Below are positions 12,367-13,948 of a stretch of DNA of 57,309 nucleotides, piece after piece. The DNA lies in IMG/VR virus record IMGVR_UViG_3300005253_002116, positions 1 to 57,309 of that record; one strand, given 5' to 3'. Positions within the stretch are counted from its first letter, which is position 1. Every line of letters starts with the position of its first letter. The notes beneath the pieces were generated by a model, which had not been told where the DNA came from, ran no database searches, and saw only the letters and a program-made list of their open reading frames with translations. The DNA is from a virus. Made by a program: the position numbers and the translations under genes.

Positions 12367-12980
12367 TTCAGCAACTTCCTAATTTCCTCGTTGATGTAAT
12401 GCTTCGGACCGATAGGTAGATACTTTACAAACTCACGTGCAGTGTTCCATGGCCTGGGCATTAGAATAGCCATACCGCCGACCTCCCGGAAGTCGTTTAC
12501 ATTCTCTTCTGAATCATCAATCAAGAGAGTATCCGGAGAAGCACAAAATTTCTTAATGGGGCTGAAAGAAAATGAGCGATGCAACCAAGATGGGAGATTC
12601 TTTTTTATCCAGCGATACTTCCCTATTAAGCATTCCGTCGTGGAAAAATCATTTACCTCCGGGCCGCAAATTGGATTTGTTAAGATCAGGACATTCTCTT
12701 GCCCTACTAAGCTAATAGATGTTTCGAGTAGAAAATCAAACTCTTTTGATTTCGGGAAATCAGTCCAATCTTTCCAATAAAAACGCTCCCAAAAGCTTTT
12801 TTTCGTGAAGTTCATAAAAGGAAGCAACTCATTTGCTGCCCTTATGATGTCGAAACCCCATTCGGGCTTATAGGCACTAAAGTCATTAACGTCGATATCG
12901 CAACCAACGTGCTTAAGTGCTTGCAACGTAAAGGCGTTACAGACATCGTCAAGGTCTAAGCAAATCTTCTTAATTCTCAT
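12363..12980 (-). CDS. 5'(3')-deoxyribonucleotidase-like HAD protein (205 aa)
   Basis: HAD motif 1 is DLDDV at residues 9-13, with the TNP motif (ILTNP) and the late LLIDDSEENV motif, matching 5'(3')-deoxyribonucleotidases that dephosphorylate dNMPs. Start chosen at 12980 after AGGAAAG; an upstream in-frame start at 13028 lacks a ribosome-binding site and lies inside the previous gene. Sits with a DUF5664 enzyme in a nucleotide-metabolism group. ATGA overlap with the SprT-like gene. Confidence 0.75.
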   Translation of the reverse strand: MRIKKICLDLDDVCNAFTLQALKHVGCDIDVNDFSAYKPEWGFDIIRAANELLPFMNFTKKSFWERFYWKDWTDFPKSKEFDFLLETSISLVGQENVLILTNPICGPEVNDFSTTECLIGKYRWIKKNLPSWLHRSFSFSPIKKFCASPDTLLIDDSEENVNDFREVGGMAILMPRPWNTAREFVKYLPIGPKHYINEEIRKLLK

Positions 12981-13329
12981 TTCTTTCCTCTTGGGCTTTT
13001 TTGATTTCGTGTAGGTAACCAAAGGCATTGAAAATTACAGCACAAAGAGCCTCTTCCTGGGATAATTCATCCATTTCATCAAAAAAAGGTATTGACTTCC
13101 TATGCAGAGTCCAAACCTCAATGAGATGACGCCAAAGAGACTTTACATAGGCGTCGAGCGGAATGCCTTTCTGCCAATTGTCGCTGTCACGAATTTTTCC
13201 ATTGGATTGCACACGGTGCTTGTGCATGTATTCAGCGTAACGCTGAAATGCTAGCGGGCTTAGGTAGCCTTCATAGTCCAATTTTGAATCTTCGTCGTCT
13301 CGTGTCGCACCGGAGTCAAAAGTTCTCAT
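12970..13329 (-). CDS. dATP/dGTP diphosphohydrolase-like protein (DUF5664, 119 aa)
   Basis: The pattern SGATRDDEDSKLDYEG at the N-terminus and SDNWQKGIP, SLWRHLIEVW in the middle match the widespread phage DUF5664 family, annotated as dATP/dGTP diphosphohydrolase N-terminal. Predicted to modify dNTP pools. Its first 18 residues are repeated, diverged, inside the upstream homing endonuclease gene. Starts within the end of that gene (14-bp overlap). Confidence 0.7.
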   Translation of the reverse strand: MRTFDSGATRDDEDSKLDYEGYLSPLAFQRYAEYMHKHRVQSNGKIRDSDNWQKGIPLDAYVKSLWRHLIEVWTLHRKSIPFFDEMDELSQEEALCAVIFNAFGYLHEIKKAQEERNEN

Positions 13330-13948
13330 TTTTTTCCCTTTCTGATAGGTTAAAATCTTTAATGCCGCTGTCTAGTAAACGAAAAGCACGTTGTGCTTGC
13401 TTTCTTTTCTGTGTTGACAAATATGGCCATAATAACTGTAATACAATTTCGACATTCTTTCTTTTACAGATTGTATATTGATGTTGATTTTTTTCTTTTC
13501 CTTTCGCTGTTTTTCGGTATATTTTTCCTACCCCAACAGCATTCAGAAATCTTTGTAATGTTTCAGCCGGTTGACCATTTGGGTCATTTTTTTGTCCAAT
13601 TGATAATTGCACTCGCGTAAAAGGATTTCCGTTATTTGTAGTACAGGAAATAGAACCTTCTCCGTCATAAAATCCAGCAGACCATGCTAGTTCTATACCT
13701 AAGTCAAGCTTACCGTCCTCGGAGTCTCGTGTTGCACCAGAGGTAAATTCTCTCATTTGTTTTTTTATTTCTTCTTTTCTTTTCTCGTGCTTCTTAAGTT
13801 CTTTGTTTGATTCTAATATATAATTAGGTATAAATTCATTTTCTCTTTCTTTTTCTTTTTGGTAAAGGGGGAAAATCCTATCGCACCATTCTCGAATTTC
13901 TTCTCCGAAAAATTTGGGATATTTGTCAAAGATACTTACAGAAGACAT
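13316..13948 (-). CDS. LAGLIDADG homing endonuclease with duplicated DUF5664 5' end (210 aa)
   Basis: Residues 1-64 are charged and of unknown origin. Residues 65-82 (MREFTSGATRDSEDGKLD) copy the start of the downstream DUF5664 protein. From about residue 85 there is a single-motif LAGLIDADG domain (AWSAGFYDGEGSI, later IYRKTAKGKEK and LLWPYLSTQKRKQAQRAF). It may be translated from 13948 (TAATG overlap with the upstream phosphoesterase) or from the internal ATG at 13756. The arrangement suggests insertion of the endonuclease into the DUF5664 gene with the target's 5' end restored downstream. Confidence 0.8.
   Translation of the reverse strand: MSSVSIFDKYPKFFGEEIREWCDRIFPLYQKEKERENEFIPNYILESNKELKKHEKRKEEIKKQMREFTSGATRDSEDGKLDLGIELAWSAGFYDGEGSISCTTNNGNPFTRVQLSIGQKNDPNGQPAETLQRFLNAVGVGKIYRKTAKGKEKNQHQYTICKRKNVEIVLQLLWPYLSTQKRKQAQRAFRLLDSGIKDFNLSEREKNENF

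Follow-up and report, generated by a model that had tools for sequence, protein, structure and literature searches.

Introduction

Mobile ORFs of fungal mitochondria are able to make hybrid genes, as described for atp6 of Allomyces macrogynus and for atp6, atp9, cox2, and nad3 of Glomus (PMC3630166). In these hybrids the mobile endonuclease ORF supplies a C-terminal end of foreign origin, and the native one stays behind; LAGLIDADG endonucleases are present in three of the four Glomus hybrid genes (PMC3630166). In phage T4, SegF, encoded next to gene 56, and SegG, encoded next to gene 32, represent intronless homing (PMC2988022). For free-standing endonucleases of the T4 type, the cut usually lies at least hundreds of bases away from the endonuclease gene itself, and one-sided illegitimate repair after homing-endonuclease cutting, with microhomology junctions, has been observed in the same phage (PMC2988022). 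Phages are likewise known to swap domains and to carry nuclease genes at the boundaries of recombination (PMC10448857).

Here, we analyzed a locus in which an endonuclease sits between the broken-off start and the complete copy of the same nucleotide-metabolism gene. The window, i.e., the whole stretch of DNA studied, comprises 57,309 bases (Table 1). As judged from the sequence comparisons presented below, the locus most likely represents the scar of an endonuclease that moved in from a related phage.

Results

Organization of the locus

The features of the locus are collected in Table 1. The original prediction that the endonuclease stop overlaps the second gene start was confirmed, the overlap being 14 nt long, and both ORFs were found on the minus strand where they had been placed. 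The start of the chimeric ORF, 64 codons upstream of the stub, was missing from that description. The phosphoesterase stop and the ATG of the chimeric ORF share one base (TAATG), and the GAAAGGG motif predicted to serve the DUF5664-like gene falls within the 3′ codons of the endonuclease.

Table 1. Coordinates of the analyzed features in the window.
Feature	Position	Strand	Remarks
Source: IMG/VR virus record IMGVR_UViG_3300005253_002116	window of 57,309 bases		
Calcineurin-like phosphoesterase gene, 258 aa	13948..14724	-	PF00149 E 2.8e-5; relatives 61-74% identical
Chimeric ORF, 210 aa/codons	13948..13316	-	leader + stub + LAGLIDADG endonuclease
64-codon leader, first part of the chimeric ORF	13757..13948	-	very A-rich, GC 0.286
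Stub, first 18 codons of a DUF5664-like gene, MREFTSGATRDSEDGKLD	13703..13756	-	GC 0.50
LAGLIDADG endonuclease domain, LGIELAWSAGFYDGEG...NENF*	13316..13702	-	single motif; GC 0.346
Probable ribosome-binding site GAAAGGG of the intact DUF5664 gene	13336..13342	-	read from sequence
14-nt overlap of endonuclease stop and DUF5664 start	13316..13329	-	TGA from DUF5664 codons 4-5 (TTT GAC)
Intact DUF5664/PF18909-like gene, 119 aa, copy 2, complete 5′ end	12970..13329	-	presumed target gene
HAD/5′-nucleotidase-like gene	12363..12983	-	after DUF5664 also in endonuclease-free relatives L006, L008, L009, L010, L019
SprT-like gene	12366-11983	-	next after the HAD/nucleotidase-like gene

The stub and the repeated gene start

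The segment MREFTSGATRDSEDGKLD, residues 65-82 of the chimeric ORF, is joined in frame to the endonuclease, and MRTFDSGATRDDEDSKLD constitutes residues 1-18 of the intact DUF5664-like protein. Fourteen of the 18 amino acids and 37 of the 54 nucleotides are identical. An independent repeat search, run with no prior selection, returned the two starts as a direct repeat of 47 nt with 77% identity and a spacing of 427 nt. A start profile was built from the first 22 residues of 80 other phage DUF5664 genes, with the window left out, and the six-frame translation of the window together with all loci collected by that point was searched with it. The stub was matched at exactly positions 1-18 (24.7 bits, E = 2e-5). 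With the type-A profile, the stub scored 35.0 bits and the genuine start 35.3 bits, which assigns the stub to the subfamily of the intact gene (type A) and marks it as a genuine start. Chance likeness of the two starts is ruled out by the start profile, the type-A scores, and the unbiased repeat search, so the homology claimed by the original prediction stands. An origin of the stub from the type B subfamily of PF18909, whose genes in L109, L112, and L115 come after a phosphoesterase of the kind present in the window, was ruled out as well (22.9 bits with type B versus 35.0 with type A). A further, weak N-terminus match near position 53630 of the window (E 0.28) was not accepted as real after inspection of the sequence.

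The two starts differ about as much as those of different phages (37/54 identical nucleotides versus a mean of 33/54 across the 80 loci), and therefore do not stem from a recent local duplication. With its 18 codons, the stub cannot resolve its own phylogeny.

Repeats of another sort were noted elsewhere in the window. Between 55771 and 57198 (+), direct repeats precede several small genes and lie close to new ATGs, a unit of about 100 nt being present three times (69-100% identical) and one of 27 nt five times. Similar short protein segments, MKHKRLRHVLSLLTNG and MKHKKLRHILGLLTNN, occur in neighboring ORFs at 11577-11986 (+), apparently a small tandem duplication.

The DUF5664-like family and the leader

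The intact gene matched PF18909 (DUF5664, dGTP_diPhyd_N) with 22.9 bits (E 8.6e-5), below the curated cut-off of 27, and hence the DUF5664 label is loose; the corresponding gene of L014 scored 18.3 bits. The gene represents a divergent PF18909 subfamily. Position 1 is not a start codon in 29 of the 80 type-A DUF5664 genes, which therefore must begin elsewhere, most plausibly farther upstream. In L009, the extension reaches up to 82 aa, counted from 2 nt past the phosphoesterase stop, and in L008, it amounts to 10 residues, the ATG overlapping the stop just as it does in the window.

Since N-terminally extended DUF5664 genes exist (the 29/80 mentioned above) and 64 residues are within their range, the leader and the stub together would most simply, and probably, form the 82-codon beginning of the DUF5664 gene of the recipient. 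No relatives of the 64-residue leader were detected in the viral contigs, Pfam, PHROGs, or the collected loci, and the search of phage records gave nothing significant (best E 3). The leader belongs to the most AT-rich stretches of the genome and the endonuclease is also AT-rich; the GC content of the stub is near the genome mean. The leader and the stub differ in GC content (Fisher p 0.005), and therefore may have different origins.

The endonuclease domain

The endonuclease part of the chimeric ORF matched PF00961 (31.8 bits, cut-off 23.1, E = 2.7e-7) and PF14528 (26.5 bits, cut-off 22.5, E = 7.8e-6), and the motif AWSAGFYDGEG is kept among 18 aligned proteins. In the Pfam search LAGLIDADG domains alone were matched, with no GIY-YIG or HNH domain in the chimeric ORF; phrog_5046, which also matches the ORF, is labelled 'HNH endonuclease', this being an annotation label only. 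The AlphaFold2 model had block means of 87-98 across the LAGLIDADG domain and its minimum within the stub (block of residues 71-80, pLDDT 55). The best PDB match of the predicted fold was I-CvuI (E 3.8e-6), then I-CreI and I-MsoI; these three enzymes are intron-encoded. The protein has a LAGLIDADG motif with an acidic residue in a domain of about 100 residues, the predicted fold of the I-CreI group, and a putative site-specific double-strand cleavage activity on endonuclease-free alleles.

Searches for relatives of the endonuclease found none in isolated phages and 12 distant loci in bacterial and archaeal genomes; no DUF5664 of the same kind was present near these 12 loci in the stretches examined.

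The window contains another LAGLIDADG-type sequence. An intein-like insert, in which a LAGLIDADG_3 domain was recognized (PF14528, E 2.1e-9), breaks up the PrkA kinase gene (PF08298, PF06798) at 615-3880 (+). The PrkA halves fall into two ORFs, 615-1715 and 1667-3880, that overlap but are in different frames, and therefore the insert seems to contain a frameshift or a sequence error. The following DUF444 gene (3889-5061) completes a PrkA-DUF444 pair in a phage.

Relatives with and without the endonuclease

In L014 (IMGVR_UViG_3300046652_000002), an endonuclease 65-68% identical to that of the window lies between the phosphoesterase and DUF5664 genes without any stub. It starts with MDIELAW, and its ATG overlaps the phosphoesterase stop. 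Endonucleases directly upstream of a DUF5664 relative, also without the stub, are present in L087/L088 (56% identical) and in L020/L021, where a distant LAGLIDADG gene (26% identical) precedes DUF5664 (3642-4004 in each). The shared position of this distant gene suggests that the spot upstream of DUF5664 has been struck repeatedly. No other fusion of a stub with an endonuclease was found in the viral contigs by a DNA pattern scan covering ATGAGR starts only.

The same site is occupied in L014 and empty in L005, L007, L008, and L016, in which the phosphoesterase and DUF5664 genes are directly adjacent. The empty boundary in L005 reads AAAGAGGAAGTAACC-ATG(DUF5664) and the occupied one in L014 reads AAAGAGGAAGCAATA-ATG(endonuclease), or, over a longer stretch, ...CCACCAAAGAGGAAGTAACC-ATG(DUF5664) versus ...CCACCAAAGAGGAAGCAATA-ATG(endonuclease). 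The start of the L014 endonuclease is therefore placed where L005 has its DUF5664 start. Both ATGs are preceded by the same purine-rich sequence, which could be a ribosome-binding site.

The window and L014 have the same right junction, with 381 nt from IELAW to the stop, the 14-nt overlap, and the same frame. The TGA of the L014 endonuclease is also built from DUF5664 codons 4-5, and AAAAGGGAGG occupies the place of GAAAGGG. The right junctions of L088 and L020 have a frame and overlap unlike those of the window. The left junction falls at codon 1 in L014 versus codon 18 in the window. The shared right and differing left junctions suggest that the endonuclease and the downstream DUF5664 start travel as a unit, whereas the left side belongs to the recipient.

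Among the 80 type-A loci from viral contigs, none had a second upstream start, so the extra 18-codon copy was not encountered in uninterrupted relatives, in line with the original prediction. L008, devoid of the endonuclease, keeps the order primase-RusA-HTH-phosphoesterase-DUF5664-HAD-SprT of the window, with a phosphoesterase of a different kind. The phosphoesterase of the window (13948-14724, -) is unlike the 350-aa one at the same place in the syntenic relatives. No match to this 258-aa protein was found among the syntenic relatives checked, and its 61-74% identical relatives occur in other contexts; those of 66-74% identity (L109, L112, L115) adjoin a different PF18909 subfamily. The exact recipient arrangement (phosphoesterase-leader-MREFTSGATRD...) was not found in the viral contigs.

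Discussion

Origin of the duplicated gene start

The original prediction proposed that the endonuclease entered the DUF5664 gene together with a foreign 5′ copy, by 5′ duplication, and that the cleavage site was split in this way. It was retained in part, as the endonuclease lies inside a former DUF5664 5′ end and, judging by the junction shared with L014, the downstream start travels with it. The duplication as the mode of insertion was not upheld, with the endonuclease located directly upstream of DUF5664 and no stub in L014, L088, and L020/L021. The split of the cleavage site is not supported either; the downstream copy holds codons 1-18 and the codons that follow in one piece. Copy 2 being unbroken across codon 18, any site there would be restored unless its sequence is resistant, and the immunity of copy 2 must come from sequence differences or be lacking. 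Since the endonuclease occurs without the stub in L014 (68%), L088 (56%), and the distant L020/L021, the duplication looks like the one-off scar of a single asymmetric event, and no fixed part of the element.

Of the explanations considered, we give moderate preference to intergenic homing of a free-standing endonuclease, with homologous repair on the right and illegitimate joining at about codon 18 on the left. The gene order primase-RusA-HTH-phosphoesterase-DUF5664-HAD-SprT, kept around the site next to a differing left neighbor, speaks for it; the cut near the insertion that it assumes, unlike the distant cutting by T4-type free-standing endonucleases, speaks against it. The same product would be given by a cassette of the endonuclease and a foreign DUF5664 5′ end that inserts in the gene and replaces its 5′ end at each move, which is the original prediction in its strong form. 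The right junction shared with L014 agrees with such a cassette, as the endonuclease and the DUF5664 start do seem to travel together, and there is a precedent, with C-terminal ends, in Allomyces and Glomus mitochondria (PMC3630166). We nevertheless consider the cassette unlikely in view of the stub-free endonucleases of L014, L087/L088, and L020/L021 and of the failure of the ATGAGR-start pattern scan to find another stub-endonuclease fusion in the viral contigs. The two starts 427 nt apart might also derive from a tandem DUF5664 pair, the first copy of which received the endonuclease and lost its remainder, and another PF18909 subfamily does adjoin the same phosphoesterase in other phages. 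This origin appears distinctly improbable, given that tandem type-A genes were seen in 0/80 relatives, that no DUF5664 trace extends past codon 18 on the left, and that the starts are about as divergent as those of separate phages.

An in-frame fusion free of stops is also what domain shuffling would leave, had the leader and stub been captured as a functional N-terminus of the endonuclease (start signal, DNA contacts, or self-regulation), and phage homing endonucleases have been reported to swap domains with other phage genes (PMC10448857). The stub is, however, too short for a domain, is the least confidently predicted region (residues 71-80, pLDDT 55), and is missing from the relatives, all of which makes this explanation highly improbable. 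An endonuclease gene behind the 5′ end of another gene is the usual layout of a mobile intron, with the stub as the first exon, but an intron or intein is ruled out for practical purposes. The interval 12900-14100 gave no Rfam match, no splicing domain was found in the chimeric ORF, and the complete downstream gene begins anew at codon 1 instead of continuing from codon 19, so that splicing would be unneeded; the relatives, too, are free-standing upstream of DUF5664, which places the endonuclease outside an intron or intein.

According to the preferred homing model, the donor would have been a free-standing single-motif LAGLIDADG gene, normally situated just upstream of a DUF5664-like gene in a related phage. 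Its cleavage site is presumed to lie close to the conserved 5′ end of DUF5664 genes, as suggested by position only. On the right side, homologous repair within DUF5664 or beyond would have brought in the endonuclease along with the complete DUF5664 start of the donor. On the left side, where the upstream genes of donor and recipient differed, the end of the recipient (the 64-codon extension and 18 DUF5664 codons) would have been joined, illegitimately and in frame, to the beginning of the endonuclease coding sequence. The outcome would be the stub-endonuclease fusion followed by the intact gene, with the endonuclease now presumably translated from the old start of the recipient gene and the DUF5664 gene from the ribosome-binding site in the 3′ end of the endonuclease.

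A broader hypothesis may be put forward tentatively, possible though on the unlikely side. A mobile endonuclease would insert in coding sequences, repair the host gene by carrying its 5′ end, take over the host start codon, and give the host gene a new start from its own 3′ codons. Such start-site exchange would then be the rule, with L014 (codon 1) and the window (codon 18) as two landings, and would form the phage mirror of the fungal C-terminal hybrids.

Significance and comparison with known systems

If the homing model holds, the locus would illustrate a way for a free-standing endonuclease to invade a coding sequence and leave the gene functional, and a way for endonuclease genes to acquire N-terminal additions. 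Translation of both genes may need no more than the old start of the host gene and a ribosome-binding site within the endonuclease. The model predicts that members of this gene family, which occurs in many environmental phages, are cleaved near codon 18. One-sided illegitimate homing repair is known from laboratory phage crosses, and the window looks like its natural scar, in which donor and recipient sequence may be distinguished. A limited literature search found no 5′-end hybrid with an in-frame stub.

Like the fungal hybrids, the locus combines an endonuclease in a coding sequence with a second, divergent gene end, and the host gene stays complete. The fungal hybrids double the 3′ (C-terminal) end and have the native end downstream, whereas the 5′ (N-terminal) end is doubled in the window and the presumed native end lies upstream. 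In contrast to the fungal cases, this end is fused in frame to the endonuclease, related phage elements have no duplication, and the setting is a phage, not mitochondria.

With T4 SegF and SegG, the locus shares an intergenic endonuclease gene packed against its presumed target and overlapping its neighbor, and repair with co-conversion of the flanks would be common to both. The enzyme differs in being a LAGLIDADG protein, not a GIY-YIG or HNH one, in the fusion of its left end to what remains of the target, and in that its cutting is presumed; by its domain content, it does not belong to the Seg or Mob enzymes of T4. The proposed event resembles one-sided illegitimate homing in T4 (PMC2988022), with homology on one side of the break and illegitimate joining on the other; the T4 events come from laboratory crosses with a mobile intron, whereas ours is deduced from a natural sequence. 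Finally, the sequence and the predicted fold match those of I-CreI, I-MsoI, and I-CvuI, which also have one LAGLIDADG motif, but unlike them, the endonuclease of the window is fused to an 82-residue N-terminal part.
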